11,780 nucleotides of DNA from the NCBI GenBank assembly GCA_016931085.1, contig JAFGFO010000420.1, positions 1 to 11,780 on the forward strand. The letters are read 5' to 3'. Below are positions 1,258 to 11,780 of this stretch, one piece after another. Below the pieces are notes generated by a model. The model ran no database searches. It had not been told where the DNA came from and saw nothing but the letters and a program-made list of their open reading frames with translations. Position numbers and translations under genes: made by a program. Within the stretch, counting starts at the first letter, position 1. Each line of letters opens with the position of its first letter. Origin of the DNA: Thermoflexales bacterium. Its GTDB lineage: Bacteria; Chloroflexota; Anaerolineae; Fen-1058.

Positions 1258-1605
1258 CTATCCATAGATTTCAATGATGGCGTGGGCCATCCTTGTCAAA
1301 AGTTGTTTCCCTTTCTCGTCCAACCGGGAAAGCACGTCTTGAGTCTCGTGAGTGGCGGGCATGGACGCTGGTGTGGCCGGCAGCAAGCCGGCGAGACGGT
1401 ATATGTTTTCAAGCGGCTCGTTGAACGCCTTGGCAATGCGCTGGCACAGGTCGGGGCCTGCTCGCCGTGTGCCGTTGAGCACCCGGCTGATCGTGCCGCT
1501 GGGTACCCGCATTCTGTACGCCGCCTCTGAGGCATTCCAATCTCTTGCTTTCATTTGTTGCTCTAGCCAGTTTCGTAGTTCTGTCTGCATGTCATGAGTG
1601 TACAT
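1258..1605 (-). CDS. XRE-family helix-turn-helix transcriptional regulator
   Basis: A 115-aa DNA-binding protein of the XRE/Cro-CI type. The helix-turn-helix spans about residues 20-75: WNASEAAYRMRVPSGTISRV is the positioning and recognition helix pair, followed by LNGTRRAGPDLCQRIAKAF and the ENIYRLAGLLP end typical of the family. The C-terminal ~35 residues form a further helix (LSRLDEKGKQLLTRMAHAII). The ATG at 1605 is chosen because AGGAAGGAGA lies just upstream at 1611-1620; an upstream in-frame ATG at 1674 would add 23 residues but has no such site. It is the first gene of the minus-strand set leading to the recombinase, and probably represses its own promoter or the divergent plus-strand operon, as phage and ICE regulators do (inference). 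The inverted repeat at 1779-1801 is a candidate binding site. Confidence 0.88.
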   Translation of the reverse strand: MYTHDMQTELRNWLEQQMKARDWNASEAAYRMRVPSGTISRVLNGTRRAGPDLCQRIAKAFNEPLENIYRLAGLLPATPASMPATHETQDVLSRLDEKGKQLLTRMAHAIIEIYG

Positions 1606-1610
1606 TATTT

Positions 1611-1620
1611 TCTCCTTCCT
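1611..1620 (-). promoter_or_regulatory. Ribosome binding site of the XRE gene
   Basis: AGGAAGGAGA on the minus strand, ending 5 nt before the ATG at 1605. It is a strong Shine-Dalgarno match and decides the start in favour of the 115-aa form rather than the longer 138-aa reading from 1674. Confidence 0.75.
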
Positions 1621-1753
1621 GTGGGATTCAATCTCGTTCCTCTTGGAATCAGTTTTTAGAGTGATGACAGGCATGGCGCATCATAAGAATATGGTGGCGC
1701 TATCGGAAAAATCGTGTGCGTAGAATGTAACTTTCCTGGTGGTTCAAAACTGG

Positions 1754-1855: not shown

Positions 1856-2158
1856 GTGAGTTCATCAACCTTGTGCCAACAACTGGCCGGTATCAAGCTG
1901 GAAGTGTTCGACTCGGTCTATGCCGGGCTGCTGCCGCACGAGCGGGAGGAGGTCGACGATCTGGTCGATGCTTTAGCCCGGATACCCAAGGTCGGGGACA
2001 AGACGGCCCGCGAGTTGTTCGTGTCGGTTGTGCTGCTGACCGTGCCGGGAGCGCCCGGCGCGCTCGGAGCGAGCTCGGCTCGAGATCTGTGGGCGTCCGT
2101 CACGCGCCTGCTGCGAAAGAATCACGATGGCATACAACTGTCCGCGGGAACAGATTGA
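1856..2158 (+). CDS. Hypothetical protein, 100 aa, first gene of replication operon
   Basis: Not recognised. The 100-residue product has a segment rich in charged residues (LPHEREEVDDLVDALARIPKV, about residues 26-46), then GDKTARELFVSVVLLTVP and an alanine/glycine-rich linker, and contains no motif I can name. The only plausible early start is GTG 1856 (an in-frame stop lies at 1847-1849), with GTGAGGT from the preceding repeat 4 nt upstream. The end overlaps the NYN gene by 32 bp. Evidence that it is real: coding-like composition, tight packing with the next gene, and position behind a divergent control region. The VDALARIPKVGDKTARELF stretch loosely resembles a helix-hairpin-helix (IPKVGDKTA compared with IPGIGpktA), which would point to DNA binding; this is suggestive only. 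Confidence 0.6.
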   Translation: MSSSTLCQQLAGIKLEVFDSVYAGLLPHEREEVDDLVDALARIPKVGDKTARELFVSVVLLTVPGAPGALGASSARDLWASVTRLLRKNHDGIQLSAGTD

Positions 2159-2837
2159 GCCTTCTCTCTCAATCGGAGAACCACAGGATGCACCTGCAGG
2201 TGCGGCGCTGGCGATTGACGGCCGGAATATTATGCTGGCGGCTGCCCAGGTCGGCAAGTGGGTTGATTTTGTCGCGTTATTGATGGCTGTGTCGAAACAG
2301 AGCAAGTACGAGTTCAAGTTCAAGCGTTTTTACGTTGGCCCCCCGGCTGATACGGTGCTGATAGATAAGAATGTGCTGGTAAACTATTGCGCGCCGCAGC
2401 AAAAAGAACCCTCACCGGCCGAATGGTACAACGCGCTCCAGCGCGAGATCGAAGCGATGGGTTACCACTGGGTGTGCTGTGAGCCGCCGGGGTCGCGCCA
2501 GGGACAAGTCAAGACCAACGTCGATATCGTGATCGCCACCGACTTGGTGACCTGGGCCAAGTCGCCGAGGTATGACATCTATCTGGCTGGCGGGGATGGG
2601 GACTACTTGATAGCTGTGCAGCGCGTCCGGCAACTAGGTGCCAGGCTGTGCTTGCTGGGGATTATGGCCGCCCGCCATGTGTCGAGGGCCCTTCTGAATG
2701 AGGTGCCACCGGCCGACTGTTTCGACATGGAGGCCATGGAGAATGTGCTGTGTCCCCTGCTCGTACAACCAGACAGTCAAGATGGCCCCGAGGCCGACTG
2801 TCCCAATCGTCACAAGACCAATCGACTAATCGACTAG
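2127..2837 (+). CDS. NYN-domain (LabA/DUF88-like, PIN-fold) protein
   Basis: A 236-aa protein with the NYN/LabA pattern of a PIN-fold nuclease-like domain, a family generally thought to act on RNA. Visible motifs are LAIDGRNIM (Asp31, Asn34), VDIVIATDLV (Asp133, Asp139) and YLAGGDGDYLIAV (Asp157, Asp159), followed by VRQLGARLCLLGI, the usual strand-helix end of the fold. The four acidic positions expected of an active metal site are all present. About 28 residues precede the first motif, and the C-terminal tail (DCPNRHKTNRLID) is encoded partly by the 8-bp tandem repeat, so it is probably not structured. It overlaps the 100-aa gene upstream by 32 bp and ends 24 bp before the primase gene. NYN proteins are not standard partners of primases; a role in RNA-primer or copy-number control is possible but unproven. 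The start ATG 2127 has only a weak GAAAGA ribosome site. Confidence 0.82.
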   Translation: MAYNCPREQIEPSLSIGEPQDAPAGAALAIDGRNIMLAAAQVGKWVDFVALLMAVSKQSKYEFKFKRFYVGPPADTVLIDKNVLVNYCAPQQKEPSPAEWYNALQREIEAMGYHWVCCEPPGSRQGQVKTNVDIVIATDLVTWAKSPRYDIYLAGGDGDYLIAVQRVRQLGARLCLLGIMAARHVSRALLNEVPPADCFDMEAMENVLCPLLVQPDSQDGPEADCPNRHKTNRLID

Positions 2838-2876
2838 CCAACTAACCGACCAATCGACCAAATGACCACAAGACTA
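2813..2876 (+). repeat. 8-bp tandem repeat across the NYN/primase junction
   Basis: Eight consecutive 8-base units of the consensus ATCGACYA: CAAGACCA, ATCGACTA, ATCGACTA, GCCAACTA, ACCGACCA, ATCGACCA, AATGACCA, CAAGACTA. The array contains the NYN stop codon (2835-2837) and the start codon of the primase gene (2862). It could be a set of iterons next to a replication gene, or a slippage-born simple repeat of the type found between genes in some Chloroflexota. Confidence 0.75.
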
Positions 2877-4994
2877 ACCGTTGACGTAGAACACATCGCC
2901 GCCGTGCTGCGCACGCTGTTCGCTCCCGGCGAGGTGATCGAGGTGCGTATCCCCAGCGTGCCGCGCGCCGGAACCGTCAGCGGCTACTTTGACGATTTTC
3001 TCCTGGCTGCCCGGGCTGCCGCCCGCTACAACTCGCGCGCTGACGGCGTCTATTTCACGCTCAACCCGGTCAGCCGCGTTCTGCTGGCGCGCTCGACCAA
3101 CCGCCTGTCCGAGTGGGCCAAGAGCGTGAGCTCTGACGTGGACGTCCTCGTGCGCCGGCATCTCTTGTTCGATTTTGACCCGGTGCGGCCTTCGGGCATC
3201 TCGTCTACAGAGGCCGAGCTGGCCGCCGCGCTGGAGCGGCGTGACGCGGTGGGAGCCTGGCTCCAGGCGCAGCTGCCCTCGGAGAGGGCACCTGCCAGTG
3301 GCTTTCCGCCCGGCCTGGCCGCGATGTCGGGCAACGGCGGGCATCTGCTCTACCGCTTGCCGGATTTGCCCAACACCCCGGAGACGACTGACCTGGTGCG
3401 CGCTTGCCTGGCGGCCGTCAAGTCGCGTTTTGGCGACGATCTGGTGAGCGTGGACGACACCGTCTTTAACGCCTCGCGTCTGACCAAGCTGTACGGCACC
3501 TGGGCGCGCAAGGGCGATCACCTGCCCGACCGGCCTCACCGCCTGTCGCACCTGGAGCTGCCCACCGGGCCGGTTGCCCCGCTTTCGCTCGACCAGTTGC
3601 GTTGGCTGGCCAACCAGGCGGCCGCTACCCCGTCCCATGCTCGTCACGCAGCAGGCCACGCGCCGGTATTCACCACGACCGGCCGCCGGCTGGACGTAGG
3701 GGCCTACCTGGCCGCTGCCGGGCAGGAATACCGCGCTCGGAGCAAGGGTGGCGTGACCTGGTACAATTTCAAGGACTGCCCTGTGCACACTGACCCGGAC
3801 GGCGACCGTTACGAGTGCGGCATCTGCCAGTTTGACAACGGCGCGCTCGGCGCCAAGTGCCAGCACGATCCCACTGCAACCTGGGCCGACTTCAAAGCCG
3901 CCCTGGGCAATCCCGCGCCGTACTACGTCGGCGGCGATCCGCTGCAGTCCGGCCGTCCTTCATCCCTGGCTGTAGCCCTCGCGTCCCCTGCATCGCCGGG
4001 AGAATGTACGCTGGACCATCTCACAGCCTACGCCCGCTGCCCAATGGAGTACACGCTGCGTTACCAGGCTGGCGCGCGAGTCTCACCCACCGGCGAGGAC
4101 CTCGTCCAGCATACCGTGCTCAAGGCGCTGCGGGATTTCCACGCCGGCCTCACGCCCTCGCCTTTTGCCGCCGTCCGCGCCAACTGGCGCGCACTTCTGG
4201 ATGAGTGGGGGATAGAGAAGCCGGACAAGGCCTATACTGCGCTTGAAGACTATGCCCGGCTGCGCACAGAATTGCTGCTGCCCTTTTTGCGCGGTGAGAT
4301 CCTCAAGCCTGATGGCAGTCCCTACGCCGAGCCGCGCAAGAGCCAGATATTCCACAACACAGCCCGCGCGCGCGGTCTGCACCAGCTCCAGGTCAGCGTG
4401 GACGGGCAAATCTCTCGTCCACCTGTCTCACTGCGAAGCGGTGACTGCCTGGGGGACGTGTTCGCCGACGCGCTTGAGATCGCCTTGCGCTACCAGCTTC
4501 CCGCCCAGGCGAACGCGCAGGCCTCGGAGGGGAACGACCTTATCGGCGTGCAGGTGCCTTTTGGCCTGGATTTGAGTGATGACCACCTTTCCGGCCAGGC
4601 TGACTTGCTGCTCCGTGTGCGGGAGCGTGGCCAGTCTGGCCTGGTGGCCGTCGTTTATGATTTTGGCCGGCTTGTCCCCTGGGACATCTTGCGGCGCGAT
4701 CTGCGTGTCTTGGCACTGCTGAACGCCGGCGGCGAGTTTTGGCGGGGCGAGGCCTCGCACACCGTCAGGGTGCATTACCTTCGCGTGGCCGAGACCGTCA
4801 GCGTGTACGGCACCTCGAATCCGGCCTGGGGGCGGGCGCTTCTGGCCGCGGCGGTGCATGCGTTGAGCACTCCCGGTGTTCCGCGCATGGCCATTGCCCC
4901 TCACCAGTGTGCGGGCTGCCGGTATCGGGAAACCTGTTCCTCGCCTGAGGGCTGGAATGTCCTAATGAGAGGCATCGATGCCCCAAGTCCCTGA
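2862..4994 (+). CDS. Primase (AEP superfamily) fused to a Cas4/AddB-like PD-(D/E)XK Fe-S nuclease domain
   Basis: A 710-aa protein in two parts. The N-terminal ~300 residues carry the archaeo-eukaryotic primase motifs: FDFDP (Asp104, Asp106, metal site), SGNGGHLLYRL (156-166, His161) and VDDTVFNASRLTKLYGTWARKG (197-218), as in phage and plasmid replicative primases. A Cys/His segment follows (CPVH at 306-309, then CGIC and CQH) that matches the zinc-binding end seen after such primases. The C-terminal ~330 residues look like the RecB-type nuclease of Cas4 and AddB: LDHLTAYARCPMEYTLRY (Cys393), SGQADLLL (Asp581), VVYDFGR (Asp600), and a terminal CAGCRYRETC (Cys683, 686, 692), which gives the C...C-x2-C-x5-C iron-sulphur pattern. 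In the active-site block the usual lysine two residues after the acid is Gly602, so cleavage activity is doubtful. No Shine-Dalgarno precedes ATG 2862. The DnaB-like gene overlaps its end by 17 bp, so the pair probably forms the replication initiation machinery of the element. Confidence 0.85.
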   Translation: MTTRLTVDVEHIAAVLRTLFAPGEVIEVRIPSVPRAGTVSGYFDDFLLAARAAARYNSRADGVYFTLNPVSRVLLARSTNRLSEWAKSVSSDVDVLVRRHLLFDFDPVRPSGISSTEAELAAALERRDAVGAWLQAQLPSERAPASGFPPGLAAMSGNGGHLLYRLPDLPNTPETTDLVRACLAAVKSRFGDDLVSVDDTVFNASRLTKLYGTWARKGDHLPDRPHRLSHLELPTGPVAPLSLDQLRWLANQAAATPSHARHAAGHAPVFTTTGRRLDVGAYLAAAGQEYRARSKGGVTWYNFKDCPVHTDPDGDRYECGICQFDNGALGAKCQHDPTATWADFKAALGNPAPYYVGGDPLQSGRPSSLAVALASPASPGECTLDHLTAYARCPMEYTLRYQAGARVSPTGEDLVQHTVLKALRDFHAGLTPSPFAAVRANWRALLDEWGIEKPDKAYTALEDYARLRTELLLPFLRGEILKPDGSPYAEPRKSQIFHNTARARGLHQLQVSVDGQISRPPVSLRSGDCLGDVFADALEIALRYQLPAQANAQASEGNDLIGVQVPFGLDLSDDHLSGQADLLLRVRERGQSGLVAVVYDFGRLVPWDILRRDLRVLALLNAGGEFWRGEASHTVRVHYLRVAETVSVYGTSNPAWGRALLAAAVHALSTPGVPRMAIAPHQCAGCRYRETCSSPEGWNVLMRGIDAPSP
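4967..4972 (+). promoter_or_regulatory. Ribosome binding site of the DnaB-like gene
   Basis: GAGAGG lies 5 nt before the ATG at 4978, inside the last codons of the primase gene. It supports that start and indicates translational coupling across the 17-bp overlap. Confidence 0.65.
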
Positions 4995-6045
4995 GCGTAT
5001 CGTCCTTCCCGCCGGCGTGGACTTTCCCCGCACGCTGTACGAGGTCACCGCCGAGTTCGACCGGCGCTTGAAAGAGGGCAAGCTGGCCAACTACCGGCCG
5101 ATCCCCACCGGTTTTTCGCCGCTCGACGACTACCTGGGCGGCGGTCTGCAGGCTGAGGACTTGGTGCTGCTGGGTGGGCCGCAGGGTGTGGGCAAGACCG
5201 TGGCCGTGCTGCAGATGGCGCGCAACGTCGCCCGTTCCGGCCGGGCGGCCATTGTCGTCTGCTTTGAGCACTCCGAGGTTTATCTCTACCACCGGCTGAT
5301 GGGCCTGGAGTCGATCGATCCCACCAGCGACGATCCCCAGGGCATGACGCGCCAGGCGCTGCGCGAGGCTGTGCTGCGGGCATTGGAAGCCGAACGCGCG
5401 GTTGCAGGCTTCGAACCTGCAACCTCAGACCTGCCGGTAGTCCCCGAGGCGAAGCCGAAGGGGGAACCTTCAACTGTCTTCGGCCTGGACTGGGTGCTTG
5501 CCCAGGTGCCGGGAGCGCAGCGGGCGTGGGAGAAACTGGTGCCGTACTGGGATCACCTGTGCCTGGGGCGTGGCAGCTCGCGCCGGACGACCGTTGACGT
5601 GTTGGAGAAATATGTCCAATGGGCGCGTAGCCAGGGACACGACGACGTCGTCCTGTTTGTGGACTATTTGCAGAAGGTGCCTCACATCCCGCCCATTGGC
5701 GTACCCGAGCCAGATACCCTGGCGCGTGTTGGGCACGTGGTGGCCGGGCTGAAAGACGTAGCGCTGGCCACCGGCGCGCCGGTCGTGGCCGTGGCGGCTG
5801 CCGACGAAGATGGCTTGCGTGGCGGCCGTATCCGCCTGGCCAACCTGCTTGGCCCCTCGTTGGTGCAGTATGAGTGTGACACTGCCATCATCTTGAACCC
5901 TGCTCCTGGTGGGCAGCAGCGGGTGGTGTGGTCCATCGAGAAGAACCGCTCAGGGCCGGCCTGCATTGAGCTTCTGTTCGCCCTTCACGGCCAGTACTTT
6001 TGCTTCAACCCTGTGGCGGTGAGTGCCGAGATGCCCCCCGGGTGA
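4978..6045 (+). CDS. DnaB-like RecA-fold ATPase/helicase
   Basis: A 355-aa ATPase related to the C-terminal (motor) domain of replicative helicase DnaB. PTGFSPLDDYLGGGLQAEDL (about 42-61) is the family lead-in, GGPQGVGKT (66-74) is Walker A, VCFEHS the next strand with its catalytic Glu, VVLFVDYLQ (224-232) is Walker B, and WSIEKNRSGP near 322 matches the basic loop KNRxGp of DnaB proteins. It lacks the DnaB N-terminal helical domain, so it may rely on the upstream primase for loading, or act as a RadA/RepA-like single-domain motor. Residues about 142-165 (VAGFEPATSD... to KPKGEPS) look like read-through of two intergenic repeats and are absent from the usual fold pattern, yet the frame is kept. 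It starts within the primase gene and is the last gene of the operon; a hairpin follows at 6089-6121. Confidence 0.87.
   Translation: MPQVPERIVLPAGVDFPRTLYEVTAEFDRRLKEGKLANYRPIPTGFSPLDDYLGGGLQAEDLVLLGGPQGVGKTVAVLQMARNVARSGRAAIVVCFEHSEVYLYHRLMGLESIDPTSDDPQGMTRQALREAVLRALEAERAVAGFEPATSDLPVVPEAKPKGEPSTVFGLDWVLAQVPGAQRAWEKLVPYWDHLCLGRGSSRRTTVDVLEKYVQWARSQGHDDVVLFVDYLQKVPHIPPIGVPEPDTLARVGHVVAGLKDVALATGAPVVAVAAADEDGLRGGRIRLANLLGPSLVQYECDTAIILNPAPGGQQRVVWSIEKNRSGPACIELLFALHGQYFCFNPVAVSAEMPPG
5401..5423. repeat. Perfect inverted repeat inside the DnaB-like gene
   Basis: GTTGCAGG (5401-5408) and CCTGCAAC (5416-5423) with a 7-nt spacer containing TTCGAA. It encodes VAGFEPA, a peptide of the kind made when a palindromic intergenic element is translated, and marks the left part of an apparent insertion in the ATPase. 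Confidence 0.65.
5440..5467. repeat. Imperfect GC-rich palindrome inside the DnaB-like gene
   Basis: CCCCGAGGC ... GCCGAAGGGG, arms pairing CCCC/GGGG and GGC/GCC with an internal mismatch. It encodes PEAKPKGEP. Placed 16 bp after the previous palindrome, it appears to be a second intergenic-type element captured in frame. Confidence 0.5.
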
Positions 6046-6242: not shown

Positions 6243-6740
6243 TTAGCGCACCTTGTATCCCATCGCCTGCAGCTTTTTTCGCCTGGCATTCGCAGCCTGT
6301 CGCGAAATACCCAGTCTTTGACCCAATTCCTTGTCGGACAAGTCTGGCTCTTTGGTTACCCACTCCAGTATCCGTGCATCAGTCGGATCTTGAATGGGTG
6401 GTAGACAGTTGGGCAAGCTGATAGCTTGTATTGACTTGTCGCTTGTCACTGTATCGTTCACTTGCTCACCAACCATCGGGGAGTTGGTCGGTGGTATTCT
6501 GCTCCTCCACAGCTTGTCCAACTCATCCTCGGCGCGTCGATATTGTTTTGTCCAGGCAATCCCGATCGAGAGGAATGGAGCAGTAATCAAGCCGACTAGC
6601 ACTCCTGCCAGTGTTTTGACGGGATCAACCAGCCACAGGACAAACCCACATACAATAGGCGTGAGCAAAACTGGTCTCATGATTTCGAGGCTCTTGACAA
6701 GTTTCGCTTTAAAAGATAGCTCATTGATTGAATCGTTCAT
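6243..6740 (-). CDS. Two-helix membrane protein with C-terminal winged helix-turn-helix
   Basis: A 165-aa protein. Two hydrophobic segments (about 22-38, PVLLTPIVCGFVLWLV, and 41-63, VKTLAGVLVGLITAPFLSIG) form a hairpin in the membrane, then a basic/acidic stretch and a linker (about 64-117). The last 47 residues, DARILEWVTKEPDLSDKELG then QRLGISRQAANARRKKLQAMGY, are a winged helix-turn-helix of the Lrp/MarR-like shape. It may be a membrane-tethered regulator or a sensor of envelope state (inference; I do not recognise a named family). ATG 6740 is chosen because AGGGAGGT lies 4-5 nt upstream; the GTG at 6746 is inside that ribosome site. The gene has its own promoter and runs against both flanking operons. 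Its DNA is visibly AT-richer than its neighbours, which suggests a separate origin. Confidence 0.8.
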   Translation of the reverse strand: MNDSINELSFKAKLVKSLEIMRPVLLTPIVCGFVLWLVDPVKTLAGVLVGLITAPFLSIGIAWTKQYRRAEDELDKLWRSRIPPTNSPMVGEQVNDTVTSDKSIQAISLPNCLPPIQDPTDARILEWVTKEPDLSDKELGQRLGISRQAANARRKKLQAMGYKVR

Positions 6741-6769
6741 TAGCACCTCCCTGGTAATTGATCTGCGAG

Positions 6770-6948: not shown

Positions 6949-9819
6949 ATGGGGCGTCCAATTTATCTTCTTGCACATCTCACCGAGCAGCAGCTCGAGG
7001 CTATCTTGCACACGGGTTCGCCGCTGCTCATCATCGCCGGGCCTGGCTCGGGCAAGACCGAGGTCGTCACCTGGCGCGTGGCGCACCTGATCAGGGCTGG
7101 ATATGCTGCGCCCGCGCATTGTCTGGTCACCACTTTTACCAACAAGGCAGCCCTCGAACTCAAAGACCGCATCCAGCACAATCTCCATCAGGCTGGTTTC
7201 GAAGGAGTGGAAGCTGACGTCGAGCAGATGCAGGTTTGTACCATCCACTCGTTGTGCGCCGATATCTTGCGGCAATACCAAAGTCGTTCCTCTTTACCGC
7301 GTGGCTTTCGCATCCTGGACGAGAGCGGCCAATTTCTGTTTGTCTACACTCATCGTAAGGCCTTGGGACTAGATGCGCTCGTCAAAGGACGCCCACATGA
7401 CTTTTTCTCTGACGTGCTGCATATGTTTAACCTAGCGACCGAGGAACTTGTTGCATCTGGGGATTTGTTGGGCTGGTGCAGAGAGCAGCAGCAAGCAGCC
7501 GAAGAGCGTGCTGCTGAGGCTGCCGGGGGCAAAAGCAAGGCCAAGGCTCGCAAGGCCGCCGACGAGGTCGAGCTTTGGCGCGAGGAAGCCATTGTCACCG
7601 AAGGCTATCGCGCCTATTGCGACTTGCTGCGCGAGCGAGGTTTGGTTGACTTTGCCTTTCTGCAGTGTCATACCCTGGACTTGCTTCAGTCTAAGCCGGA
7701 TGTCGTAACCGAGTTGCGCGAACGTTACCGCGAGATTTTCGTGGACGAATACCAGGACACCAATGCTGCGCAAGAGCATATTCTCAAGTACCTCGCTGCC
7801 GCAGGCGAGCGCTTGACTGTCGTGGGTGACGATGACCAGAGTATATACCGTTTTCGCGGCGCAACAGTGAGCAATCTTCTTTCATTTGCCGATCGTTATG
7901 CCGGTGCGCACGTCGTCAAGCTGACCCAGAACTTTCGCAGCCGTGAACCAATCGTGCAGCACTCGCTCGGTGTTATTGTGAACAACCCGGCCCGTTTCCC
8001 CAAGGACCTGTTCACGATGCGCGGCAGTGGCAGCGACGTCTTACTCGTTTACGAGCGCACGGTGAGCGAAGAAGCGGCCGCCATCGCCGCTCTATTAGGT
8101 CGCTTGCACCGCTCTGGGAAAATCCGGCGTTGGGGCGATGTGGCCTTTTTGCTGCGCAGCGTGAAATCGTATGCCGGTGACTATGTAGCGGCATTGCAGG
8201 CAGAAAGTATCCCGGCTTACGTCATGGGCGATGCGACTTTCTTCGAGCGTGAGGATATTCAGCAACTCTACTGCTTGTTCAACTTTTTGGGCGCGACCAA
8301 ACCATGGGGTGACGTCCACGTGCGCTGCCCGCTGATGGGGTTAGATGATCCCACGTGTATGGCGCTTCAAGTGTACAAGGGTAGTTTGCTCGATATTGCA
8401 GACGATGAGGGGTTGCAACAAATCGGTGTTCAAGACGCTAATGATCGCCGCAGGATCTTGGATCTGTTGGCGCTCAAGCGACGCGTCCAGGCCAAGCAGC
8501 ACACCAGCTTGTTGGAGGTGTTCTACGACCTGTTGGCCGCCACGGGACACGTGCGGTTGTGCGAGCGGGCCAAGTGCACCGAGCCGTTGATGAACCTGGG
8601 TGTGATGAGCCGGCTGGTGGCCGCTTTTGACGAGCATGGCGGCACGCGCAACTTTTACCCGTTTCAGGATTATCTGCGGTTGATGAAGGAAGGCGGGGTC
8701 AATCCGGCTGTTGTCGCGCCAGACAATGCTGTGCAGGTGATGACTATCCACCAGGCCAAGGGCTTAGAGTTTCCTGTTGTTGTGATCGGATCGGTCATGA
8801 CCGGCCGGTTGCCAGGCACGTACCGCAAGGATCGTTACGAGGTGCCGCACAAGCTGCGTGCTAGTGGCCAGCCGGAGGTGCCAGACCCGCACTTGGTTGA
8901 CGAGCGCAAGTTGTTTTATGTGGCGGCTACTCGTGCCAGGGAACTGTTGATCCTGGGCACGGCTGACGTGGTCAACAAGCGCGGTGGCGGCCCAAGTCCT
9001 TTCTTGGTCGAGATGTTTGGTCAAGACTTACACGGGGTGGCCGACCTCAGCCAGGCTCGCATTGAAGAGGCTGCAAGTCGGGCTGAAACAGGTACTGTGC
9101 CTCGCGAGCGCCTGAGTTTCAGTCAACTGGCTTACTTTCTCCAATGCCCGGTGCGATTCAAGTTTGCCGTTGCGTATGGCTTGGAAGTGCCCAGGCCTGA
9201 TCCGGTGGATTATGGCGCGAACGTGCATCGCGCGTTGTTGGTCATTCACGAGCTTGCACGAATTGGTCAGACCCCCTCGCAGGGTGATGTGGGCGAGATT
9301 GTCGAGCAGACGTGGATCACGGCGCTTCAGGCTAACCCAGCTCAGGATCGCCAAGCCAGGCAAGCCGCCATCAAGCAGCTTGAGCGGTACGTCACGAACC
9401 ACGCCGGCACGTTTGATCGGGTGAAACAGGCCGAGGTTTCGTTCTCGTTGGGGCTGGATCGGCACGTTTTGGTAGGCAAAATTGACCTGGTTCGCCAGGC
9501 CGGTGGGGAAAACGAAATAGTGGATTTCAAAACAGGCAAGTCGGTGCCAGCGGCATTGGAGCAGGTAGATACTCAGCTCGACCTGTATGCATTGGGTGCG
9601 GAAGGGAGTCTTGGTCTGCGCGTTGCTCGCCAGGCCGTGCATTTCTTGGAAGACGACAAGGTGTATGCGTGGGACTGGTCGACGCAAAAGGCACTTGCAG
9701 CGCGCGAGTGCTTGGACGCAATGCTTGATTGCATCTTGCGCCAGGACTTGACGCCCAGGCTGGAGTATTGCCCGCGCTGTTCCGAGTTCCGTTCCATCTG
9801 CCCTTATGCTGGAGGTTGA
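6949..9819 (+). CDS. UvrD/PcrA-type helicase with C-terminal Fe-S PD-(D/E)XK nuclease
   Basis: A 956-aa superfamily 1 DNA helicase-nuclease. Helicase motifs occur in order: LTEQQLEAI (Q motif), GPGSGKTE (31-38, Walker A), TFTNKAALELKDRI (Ia), FVDEYQDTNAAQ (264-275, Walker B), VGDDDQSIYRFRGA (III), LTQNFRS (IV), VQVMTIHQAKGLEF (V) and LFYVAATRARELL (VI). A charged helical insertion (about 180-220, rich in Ala, Glu and Lys) is in the 1B region. From about 720 a RecB/Cas4-like nuclease follows: LSFSQLAYFLQCP (Cys733), GKIDLV (Asp846), IVDFKTGK (Asp859, Lys861), then CPRCSEFRSIC (Cys941, 944, 951), an iron-sulphur set. All catalytic residues of both parts are present. The layout resembles AddA/AddB material joined in one chain. 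ATG 6949 has no strong ribosome site, but the Q motif follows closely, supporting the start. The DUF1232 gene begins 3 bp later. Confidence 0.93.
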   Translation: MGRPIYLLAHLTEQQLEAILHTGSPLLIIAGPGSGKTEVVTWRVAHLIRAGYAAPAHCLVTTFTNKAALELKDRIQHNLHQAGFEGVEADVEQMQVCTIHSLCADILRQYQSRSSLPRGFRILDESGQFLFVYTHRKALGLDALVKGRPHDFFSDVLHMFNLATEELVASGDLLGWCREQQQAAEERAAEAAGGKSKAKARKAADEVELWREEAIVTEGYRAYCDLLRERGLVDFAFLQCHTLDLLQSKPDVVTELRERYREIFVDEYQDTNAAQEHILKYLAAAGERLTVVGDDDQSIYRFRGATVSNLLSFADRYAGAHVVKLTQNFRSREPIVQHSLGVIVNNPARFPKDLFTMRGSGSDVLLVYERTVSEEAAAIAALLGRLHRSGKIRRWGDVAFLLRSVKSYAGDYVAALQAESIPAYVMGDATFFEREDIQQLYCLFNFLGATKPWGDVHVRCPLMGLDDPTCMALQVYKGSLLDIADDEGLQQIGVQDANDRRRILDLLALKRRVQAKQHTSLLEVFYDLLAATGHVRLCERAKCTEPLMNLGVMSRLVAAFDEHGGTRNFYPFQDYLRLMKEGGVNPAVVAPDNAVQVMTIHQAKGLEFPVVVIGSVMTGRLPGTYRKDRYEVPHKLRASGQPEVPDPHLVDERKLFYVAATRARELLILGTADVVNKRGGGPSPFLVEMFGQDLHGVADLSQARIEEAASRAETGTVPRERLSFSQLAYFLQCPVRFKFAVAYGLEVPRPDPVDYGANVHRALLVIHELARIGQTPSQGDVGEIVEQTWITALQANPAQDRQARQAAIKQLERYVTNHAGTFDRVKQAEVSFSLGLDRHVLVGKIDLVRQAGGENEIVDFKTGKSVPAALEQVDTQLDLYALGAEGSLGLRVARQAVHFLEDDKVYAWDWSTQKALAARECLDAMLDCILRQDLTPRLEYCPRCSEFRSICPYAGG
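9811..9815 (+). promoter_or_regulatory. Ribosome binding site of the DUF1232 gene
   Basis: GGAGG, 7 nt before ATG 9823, inside the final codons of the helicase gene. It fixes the start and shows that the two genes are translated from one message. Confidence 0.8.
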
Positions 9820-9822
9820 AAG

Positions 9823-10254
9823 ATGGAAAAGTTTGATAGCTTATTGCAGCAAGAGATTGCCAGGTACGAAGGCCGTCACGACGACTTGATTTACCAAGCC
9901 CCGGCCTTGTATCGCCTGATGGTGCAACTGTTGGACGACAAGCGGTTGCCAGGCCGGCTTCGCCCGTTGATCGCGTGCACAGTCGCGTATTTCATCCTGC
10001 CGGCCGACGTCATCCCTGAGGATATCCATGGCCCGTATGGCTACGCTGACGATATCTGGCTGTGTGCCTGGGCGGCCGGCGTGGTGCGCCGCGAAGTGGG
10101 CGATGACGTTTTGACCGAGAACTGGGATGGCGAAGCGCCGCTGATAGAGCTGCTGCAGGACATCCTGGCGCGTGAAGCGGACTTGATTGGGGACCAGCGG
10201 GACAAGATTTTGTGGTATACTGGCTGTGATAGGCTGATTGATTTGGAGCTGTAG
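9823..10254 (+). CDS. DUF1232/YkvA-like protein
   Basis: A 143-aa protein whose centre (about 46-80) matches the DUF1232 pattern: PLIACTVAYFILPADVIPED followed by GYADDIWLCAWA, compared with the family's hY.LSPiDLIPDf...GylDD. The family's function is not established; the motif sits in a short hydrophobic stretch and is sometimes linked to membranes. The remaining sequence is helical and acidic, with no catalytic motif. The gene follows the helicase-nuclease by 3 bp and precedes hsdM by 88 bp, so it is part of the same cassette and may be an accessory subunit of the helicase or the restriction complex (inference). DUF1232 assignment is fairly firm; role is unknown. Confidence 0.82.
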   Translation: MEKFDSLLQQEIARYEGRHDDLIYQAPALYRLMVQLLDDKRLPGRLRPLIACTVAYFILPADVIPEDIHGPYGYADDIWLCAWAAGVVRREVGDDVLTENWDGEAPLIELLQDILAREADLIGDQRDKILWYTGCDRLIDLEL

Positions 10255-10342: not shown

Positions 10343-11780
10343 ATGGCTCAACGGAAGAAAACTGACAAGACGAAAACCAATGGTGCCAACTTGGGCTTTG
10401 AGGAAAAGCTGTGGGCGGCCGCTGACAAGCTGCGCGGCCACGTGGACGCCGCCGAGTACAAGCACATCGTCCTGGGCCTGATTTTCCTCAAGTATATCTC
10501 GGATGCCTTCGAGGAACGCCACTGCTGGCTCTTGAAAGAGACGGCTAATCCTCGCAGTGACTATTACGTGCGCGAGGAACAGACTCGTTACGAGGTAGCT
10601 GAGGACCGCGACGAGTACACCGCCGATAACATCTTTTGGGTGCCCAAGGAAGCGCGGTGGTCGTACCTGCAAGCCAACGCCAAGCAGCCAACCATCGGCC
10701 AGTTGATTGACGAAGCTATGGTGGCCATTGAGCGCGAAAATCCACGCCTCAAGGGCGTATTGCCCAAAGACTATGGTCGCCCTACACTGGACAAACACCG
10801 GCTGGGTGAGCTGGTTGACTTGGTCGGTACGATCGGCTTAGGCGATGCAGAGAGCCGCTCCAAGGATATCCTGGGCCGCGTGTACGAGTATTTCTTGGGA
10901 CGCTTTGCCAGCGCCGAGGGCAAAGGCGGCGGTGAGTTTTACACACCTCAAGCGGTGGTCAAGCTGTTGGTGGCCATGATCGAGCCGTACCGGGGTCGCG
11001 TGTACGACCCGTGTTGCGGATCGGGCGGCATGTTCGTGCAATCCGAAAAGTTTGTCCAGGCCCATGGGGGCGGTATCCACGACATTGCTATTTATGGGCA
11101 GGAATCCAACCCGACGACCTGGCGTTTGTGCAAGATGAACCTGGCCATCCGGGGCATTGAGGGCAAGATCGGGGCCGAGCCGGCCGATACCTTCCACAAC
11201 GACGTCCACAAAGACTTGCGAGCCGATTTTATCCTGGCCAATCCCCCCTTCAACGTGAGCGATTGGGGCGGCGAACGCGTGCGCGACGATGTGCGCTGGA
11301 AGTATGGCGCGCCGCCGGTGGGCAATGCCAACTTTGCCTGGGTGCAGCACATTGTTCACCACCTGGCGCCGGCTGGCATTGCCGGTTTCGTGCTGGCGAA
11401 CGGCTCGATGAGTTCCAATACAAGTGGTGAAGGTGACATCCGCCGGGCTATCATTGAGGCTGACCTGGTGGATTGCATGATTGCGCTGCCGGGGCAACTG
11501 TTTTACACCACGCCGATTCCGGCCTGTTTATGGTTTCTCACGCGCAGCAAGCAAAGGGCGCCCCTCGCCCGCTGGGGTGGGAGAGAGGTCGGGGGTGAGG
11601 GCCGTGACCGGTGTGGCCAAACGCTGTTCATCGACGCGCGCAAGATGGGTTACTTGATAGACCGGACGCACCGAGAGTTGACGGACGAAGAAGTCGCCCG
11701 CGTTGCCGGCGCCTATCACGCCTGGCGTGGCGAAAGCCTCGCCGGGGGTGAAGATTACCAGGATGTGCCGGGCTTTTGCA
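10343..11780 (+). CDS. hsdM: Type I restriction-modification methyltransferase subunit HsdM, partial at right edge
   Basis: The DNA N6-adenine methyltransferase subunit of a type I restriction-modification system; with HsdS it methylates the recognition site, and with HsdR it restricts foreign DNA. 479 codons are present and the frame runs off the right edge. The N-terminal HsdM_N helical domain covers about 15-170 ([20 protein letters not shown], then [20 protein letters not shown]). The methyltransferase domain has [16 protein letters not shown], the SAM-binding [10 protein letters not shown] (222-231), the YGQES strand and the catalytic NPPF (300-303). The conserved [20 protein letters not shown] and [15 protein letters not shown] blocks flank an atypical segment, residues about 406-420 ([15 protein letters not shown]), which is a translated copy of the GC-rich repeat. 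hsdS and hsdR are expected just beyond the window. Confidence 0.95.
11561..11601. repeat. GC-rich palindromic repeat inside hsdM, copy 2
   Basis: CCCCTCGCCCGCTGGGGTGG followed by GAGAGAGGTCGGGGGTGAGG, sharing the GGGGGTGAGG end and general plan with the intergenic copy at 1817-1852. It adds about 14 codons between two conserved HsdM blocks and contains no stop in the reading frame. Confidence 0.75.

Follow-up and report, generated by a model that had tools for sequence, protein, structure and literature searches.

A family of predicted AEP primases fused to a Cas4/AddB-like four-cysteine domain that lacks the nuclease lysine

A stretch of 11,780 nucleotides from a Thermoflexales bacterium, referred to here as the window, encodes a single protein in which a predicted AEP (Prim-Pol) primase is followed by a domain resembling the Cas4/AddB-type Fe-S nucleases, and the locus raises the question of what a nuclease-like tail does on a primase. 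Literature that was mostly open-access, judged from titles and the beginnings of abstracts, gave no description of a primase fused to a Cas4/AddB-like domain. The founding AEP survey, reportedly that of Iyer et al. in 2005, may describe the fusion. Neither 'Cas4' nor 'iron' is mentioned in the main text of a later AEP survey (PMC5862659), the portions consulted of a Cas4 survey (PMC5704561) and of the CAPP paper (PMC8211822) contain no mention of 'primase' and 'Cas4', respectively, and no primase-Cas4-type fusion is described in passages of PMC4046053, PMC8616872, and PMC10910872, the first of which reports a casposon Cas4-like nuclease joined to a helicase. As far as searched, the architecture is a real, conserved, and apparently undescribed variant of the mobile-element AEP primases.

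The fused protein and its family

The initial annotation had read a 710-aa open reading frame (ORF) at this locus as a primase with three motifs and a Cys/His segment in its N-terminal half, joined to a Cas4/AddB-like domain marked by a single Cys and a C-x2-C-x5-C pattern, and all of these elements were found where it had placed them (Table 1). Two protein searches covering 5.8 billion sequences returned the identical set of at least 16 end-to-end clusters, including that of the window; this total is a lower bound because both searches scored the ~8000 candidates with the most shared words. The same two-domain order is present in at least 15 further clusters, which match 98-99% of the 710-aa length at 44-63% identity, and the start Met is aligned in 15 of the 16 rows of the alignment of fused proteins (alignment A1, window protein included), so the fusion ORF is neither a chance reading frame nor a frame accident. 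By score, the 16-member family stands apart from its other relatives: the lowest fused member scored 574 bits in the first search and 1046 bits in the second, and the next protein 245 and 331 bits, respectively. One member, P0002, also comes from a metagenome-assembled genome of the Thermoflexales, an order of the Chloroflexota.

Table 1. Coordinates of the fusion gene, its sites and the neighboring features in the window
Feature	Position	Strand	Residues or evidence
Serine recombinase	1-1032, cut by window end	-	PF00239 E 2.9e-31; PF07508 E 2.5e-10
HTH_3 protein	1258-1674	-	
NYN (PIN-like) domain protein	2127..2837	+	PF01936 E 6.7e-10; acidic motifs present; ends 24 nt before primase start
Tandem 8-nt array, ~GACYAAYC; candidate iteron or operator	2808..2879	+	Spans NYN end, 24-nt gap and primase start codon
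Primase / Cas4-AddB-like fusion gene	2862..4994	+	710 aa, ATG start, stop included; ORF list and 15 full-length relatives
AEP (Prim-Pol) catalytic domain, predicted	2862..3626	+	Residues 1-255
AEP motif I, D104-x-D106	3171..3179	+	Both Asp 150/150 aligned relatives
AEP motif II, S156-G-N-G-G-H161	3327..3344	+	S156, G157, N158 each 150/150; H161 143/150
AEP motif III D198 and candidate motif IV R206	3453..3479	+	D198 150/150; R206 149/150
Cys/His zinc-ribbon-like segment (C306, H309, C319, C322, C333, H335)	3687..3911	+	Residues 276-350; all six invariant in 16 fused proteins
Cas4/AddB-like PD-(D/E)XK domain with four-cysteine site	3993..4991	+	Residues 378-710
Cys1 of Fe-S-type site, C393	4038..4040	+	16/16
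D581, first acidic residue of nuclease site	4602..4604	+	16/16
D600-F601-G602, where active relatives have D-x-K; Lys absent	4659..4667	+	D600 16/16; Lys602 0/16
C683-x2-C686-x5-C692 of Fe-S-type site	4908..4937	+	16/16 each
DnaB_C/RecA-fold helicase gene	4978..6045	+	355 aa; PF03796 E 1.1e-12; Walker A and B present
Winged-HTH protein	6243-6746	-	N-terminal part membrane-spanning by eye
UvrD helicase with C-terminal Cas4-like domain	6949-9819		Catalytic motifs kept
DUF1232 protein	9823-10254		
HsdM	10343-, cut by window end		

The N-terminal half is predicted to be an active AEP primase. It has the AEP fold, and the motif patterns of the superfamily are all present: hhhDhD/E of motif I at D104 and D106, small-x-His of motif II at G159-G160-H161, and hD/E of motif III at V197-D198. 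These positions are near-invariant in 150 aligned relatives, and H161 is kept in all 16 fused proteins. The pair R206-L207, likewise present in 16/16, includes a candidate, identified by sequence alignment, for the motif IV flange Arg of PrimPol-PV1. Profile searches gave no PriCT match for either the window protein (Pfam, E up to 1) or the 16 fused proteins (E up to 0.1). Within the Cys/His segment that follows, C322 is found in exactly the 16 fused proteins among the 150.

Assignment of the C-terminal half depended on both profile and fold comparison. Pfam PDDEXK_1 matched the window protein with 26.7 bits against a cut-off of 22 and matched 6/16 fused members at E up to 0.1; the Cas4 model TIGR00372 gave weak matches in four of the 16 (best E 2.8e-4) and none in the window's own protein. 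A structure model built from the 16 sequences is weak at full length (mean pLDDT 66, pTM 0.51), with ten-residue block pLDDT means of 49-94 over residues 381-710 except for 671-680, at 36. Fold matching of the model by VIA gave ACE1 (13.0), AdnA (12.6), Cas4 (12.3), Dna2 (11.7), and AddB (11.3), and the leading rows over residues 378-699 are of the PD-(D/E)XK fold, not the helical PriL fold; Foldseek alone found no match at or below E 0.001, although AddB and Cas4 again headed its list. The comparison that might have overturned the proposed two-domain architecture thus returned the PD-(D/E)XK fold and supports it.

The one-plus-three cysteines of this domain are fixed throughout the family, and the site that they form probably carries a 4Fe-4S cluster. 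Eight of the 11 cysteines of the fusion protein are invariant, namely these four and four in the Cys/His segment. Across the 16 clusters, 39 of the 333 columns of the C-terminal half are invariant, and they include the four cysteines and two aspartates of the nuclease site; the chance of these six named columns falling among the invariant ones is 1.8e-6, if kinship is ignored. Mean identity in the family is 51% in the C-terminal half versus 71% in the AEP part, and two subclades, now at 38% identity to each other, both preserve the full length in alignment A1.

The nuclease site of the C-terminal half

The Asp pair that the initial annotation had attributed to RecB-family nucleases is present in all 16 fused proteins: in the structure model, D581 lies within the predicted strand 575-588 and D600 terminates the predicted strand 591-600, as expected for the acidic pair of the fold. 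That earlier reading had recognized the cysteines and aspartates rightly and had missed the absence of the Lys of (D/E)xK. The catalytic Lys is found in none of the 16, residue 602 being S in eight, A in five, and G, T, and L in one each; Lys anywhere in residues 600-606 occurs in one protein, P0002, one place beyond 602. Position 417, that of the motif-I His, is E in 10, D in two, Q in two, H in one, and R in one, so that it is acidic in 12/16, and the single His is that of the window's own protein. QxxxY is absent from residues 600-632 in 16/16. Motif-I His and QxxxY are names for motifs of Cas4/AddB-type nucleases. In these three features the fused family differs from the Fe-S nucleases of the Cas4, AddB, AdnA, and Dna2 type, and because Lys, His, and QxxxY were all looked for and found wanting, we do not class the domain as a Cas4/AddB nuclease. 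A control is available in the same window: the Cas4-like end of the UvrD helicase, encoded two genes before HsdM, has CPxxF, GxxVH, GKID, VDFK, QLDLYA (QxxxYA), and a closing three-Cys cluster and so keeps the catalytic motifs, unlike the primase tail.

The helix that follows D600 contains R611 (14/16), H/R612 (16/16), D613 (15/16), and R615 (14/16). This Arg/His stretch occupies the place of QxxxY in the active relatives and, together with the fixed cysteines and acidic pair, would fit a binding role. Some enzymes of the PD-(D/E)XK fold cut without the Lys, and its loss is therefore not proof of lost activity; since the acidic pair is kept, metal binding may survive in the domain. Both subclades are without the Lys, and the loss is thus probably as old as the known fused family. 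The initial annotation had expected the tail to process DNA ends or strands as a nuclease, a role that the missing Lys, His (15 of the 16), and QxxxY argue against. We predict that the C-terminal domain is without nuclease catalysis and suggest that it may still bind DNA in the manner of Cas4/AddB-type proteins.

Distribution of the fusion and the surrounding genes

Partner domains were counted by hand from a precomputed Pfam column for the 104 non-fused proteins among the top 120 of 918. Of these, 58 have an annotated domain of helicase or DUF type and 46 have no annotation; the counts are PF13481 (AAA_25) 20, PF13148 15, PF08706 14, PF06048 4, PF12307 3, and PF03796 (DnaB_C) alone 2, some rows bearing extra domains such as HTH, and PDDEXK (PF12705) is a partner in 0/104. 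PF13148, PF08706, PF06048, and PF12307 are presumably DUF3987, D5, DUF927, and DUF3631. Among the 150 proteins, the C-terminal profile matches just the 16 fused ones, and a looser cysteine cluster, C-x2-C-x4-8-C, is found among the 134 non-fused proteins in P0052 only, near its end.

When 84,980 species genomes and IMG/VR were scanned by pattern, relatives of the primase half were detected and no fusion. With alignment A1, 41 pattern matches in the genome contigs yielded 16 relatives, whose similarity never extends past query residue 365; in the viral contigs, 40 pattern matches yielded 25 loci, again with nothing past residue 381. The A2 scan, whose query ends at residue 363, gave 494 relatives with 80 loci retained, and here the tail was tested separately with the C-terminal profile. 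In the resulting set of 125 loci plus the window, the primase half was matched in all 126 and the C-terminal profile (E up to 10) matched only the window ORF; this profile detects close kin only, as it also misses the UvrD-Cas4 domain in the window. A cysteine-pattern search able to find UvrD-Cas4 returned six other ORFs from the same sources, none of which is a primase ORF or contains GxxD...DxK. The looser C-x2-C-x4-8-C pattern after residue 330 is present in 2/137 primase ORFs, that of the window and one from a viral contig (L056:3458-6256). The latter, of 933 residues, has CQACGRELC at residue 843 without a Cas4-like first Cys, and its cysteine cluster is probably another metal site.

A protein search with residues 378-710 recovered P0001-P0003 only, a result that is governed by the word limit and is no measure of spread. 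In 59 genomes from the phylum of one locus's genome (L018), two had a match, neither beyond profile position 337 of 695. By tblastn, one plasmid and two phage records matched over the N-terminal half only, and P0010 as query found the same two phage records; searches with the C-terminal half found nothing in phages and no relative in viral contigs. In BFVD, the viral structure that best matches the full model is A0A516L7T7 (822 aa; 586 columns, 21% identity, TM 0.17), which could be a viral protein with both domains or a poor chain of matches.

The fusion likely had a single origin. In an IQ-TREE quick tree of 52 rows chosen from the 150, the 16 fused proteins form one side of a branch with a support of 88, below the tool's mark for a firm branch, and the subclades, P0001-P0003 and the 13 others, are both firm with a support of 99 each. 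In a FastTree tree of all 150 rows, the very long branch of P0121, a tailless primase of 381 aa, falls inside the fused set. This protein ends near the domain border on a contig of 1,918 bases that has room for more, and it might represent either an unfused form or a truncated sequence.

The genes around the fusion suggest an integrated mobile element, judging from the recombinase, the repressor-like protein, and the primase itself. From its position, the NYN protein may belong to the replication module and could be a primer-removing or RNA-cutting partner. The array that spans the junction of the NYN and primase genes has nine 8-nt units, the first degenerate, with a period out of step with the codons; lag-8 identity in 72-nt stretches is 0.67 here and does not exceed 0.42 in the rest of the window, and TRF reports rows at 2816-2858 and 2847-2868. 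When the regions preceding 42 other primase loci were put through a similar repeat test, all scored lower, and the best of them had a different period. Immediately downstream of the primase gene, the helicase gene starts inside it, the two sharing 17 nt. The initial annotation had noted that mobile-element primases are usually fused to helicase or PriCT domains; a putative helicase partner is indeed present here, as the next gene and not in the same chain. The order NYN-primase-helicase is known from one member, that of this window, and scans of viral contigs gave no relative of either the helicase or the NYN protein.

Farther downstream, the UvrD-Cas4 gene followed by those for DUF1232 and HsdM resembles the known defense settings of UvrD-Cas4 fusions near restriction and methylase genes described in parts of PMC5704561, which involve type III and Dcm enzymes, whereas the window has a type I methylase. 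A CCCTCTCC...GGGAGAGGGG-type repeat also occurs twice in the window, at 1816-1851 and 11565-11600, the two 36-nt copies being 78% alike. Repeats of this type are common in Chloroflexota genomes.

Proposed role of the tail

Known systems resemble the fusion in part. Compared with the mobile-element AEP primases of the PrimPol-PV1-like and all3500-like groups described by Kazlauskas et al. 2018 (PMC5862659), the fused proteins share the AEP fold, motifs I-III, an Arg after motif III, a likely mobile-element setting, and, in their wider family, helicase-type C-terminal partners. Partners reported there include helicases, PriCT-1/2, HTH, and lambda O-like domains, the PriCT domains being proposed counterparts of PriL and those most often fused to mobile-element AEPs, whereas the fused proteins show no PriCT match in Pfam. 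Domains of the Cas4, AddB, AdnA, and Dna2 type are otherwise fused to helicases or Cas1 or stand alone, and here the domain is joined to a primase. The C-terminal Fe-S domain of PriL, PriX, and PriCT offer a parallel in that a probable Fe-S domain is attached to, or works with, an AEP domain; unlike the helical PriL domain, the fold here is PD-(D/E)XK, and the likeness is one of position and possible role only. UvrD-Cas4 fusions in defense islands, as described in PMC5704561, likewise join a pfam12705 Cas4-like domain to a DNA enzyme. The TTV1 nucleocapsid protein TP1 (PMC4625639) is a precedent for a mobile-element Cas4 derivative that has lost catalytic residues, although there a split Cas4 gene gave rise to a capsid protein and here the domain is the tail of a primase. 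Two further papers provide a functional context: SCCmec uses a separate primase and helicase as a mobile-element replication module, with enzymes unrelated to these (PMC7581432), and in Thermus, AddAB loss is selected for when a mobile-element Prim-Pol is lost (PMC9751324), which is a genetic link between both kinds of activity in different proteins.

We propose, with moderate confidence, that the protein is a mobile-element replication primase whose Cas4/AddB-type tail has lost catalysis and serves mainly as a DNA-gripping module that also docks the helicase. Retention of the four metal-holding cysteines together with loss of the key cutting residue suggests that the tail probably grips DNA or partner proteins instead of cutting. 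The AEP domain, aided by the Cys/His segment, would make primers for replication of the element; the tail would keep the template strand, or else a strand end or fork junction, beside the primase active site, would help to dock the separately encoded RecA-type helicase, and would take the place, and perhaps the job, of the PriCT/PriL-type domain and fused helicase of other AEPs.

The strongest competing explanation, which we regard as possible though rather unlikely, is that the tail is mainly a protein-docking adaptor with little DNA role, which replaced a covalent helicase link and recruits the downstream RecA-type helicase. Relatives P0046, P0052, and P0140 have DnaB_C/RecA-type domains in the same chain, the ATPase part of P0140 beginning at about residue 370; the tail sits in that helicase place, and the ATPase part of the adjacent, overlapping helicase is weakly similar to the post-primase part of P0140 (24 bits, E 9.2e-8 in the file of 150 proteins). 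An adaptor, however, would have no need to retain four metal-type cysteines and an acidic pair as the subclades drifted so far apart, and the co-occurrence of primase and helicase is seen in this window only. We think it improbable that the tail has an altered but working nuclease site and trims or nicks strands to give the primase starting points: the fold, the acidic pair, and the four cysteines are kept, a mostly acidic residue 417 could mean that a metal site persists, and the existence of Lys-independent enzymes of this fold helps the idea, but the S, A, G, T, or L at residue 602, the near absence of a nearby Lys, and the missing QxxxY speak against cleavage. That the tail is a decaying relic of an accidentally fused nuclease, with no present role, is very unlikely: its faster evolution and missing catalytic residues would agree with this, but the invariant columns across 16 clusters, all four cysteines among them, and the full length of both subclades speak against it.

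A more speculative reading, which we consider doubtful, is that the family is an independent second invention of an Fe-S primase, in which a mobile-element AEP took up a silenced Cas4/AddB domain whose cluster and old active-site groove do the job of the unrelated C-terminal domain of archaeal and eukaryotic PriL, holding the template together with either the starting nucleotide or the end of the primer, perhaps under redox control. The role of the Fe-S cluster in primases is disputed. An archaeal study reports primer synthesis that is independent of the cluster (PMC5700102), and in another line of work the DNA affinity of the human primase domain is reported to depend on the redox state of the cluster, with concerns about that claim noted (PMC6298731). 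If an unrelated Fe-S fold joined a primase separately, keeping its cysteines and losing catalysis, this question would become testable in a single-chain bacterial protein. The fusion adds an architecture absent from the consulted portions of the AEP survey PMC5862659 and, if the proposed role is true, would represent another way in which Cas4-type nucleases come to serve as modules that do not cut.
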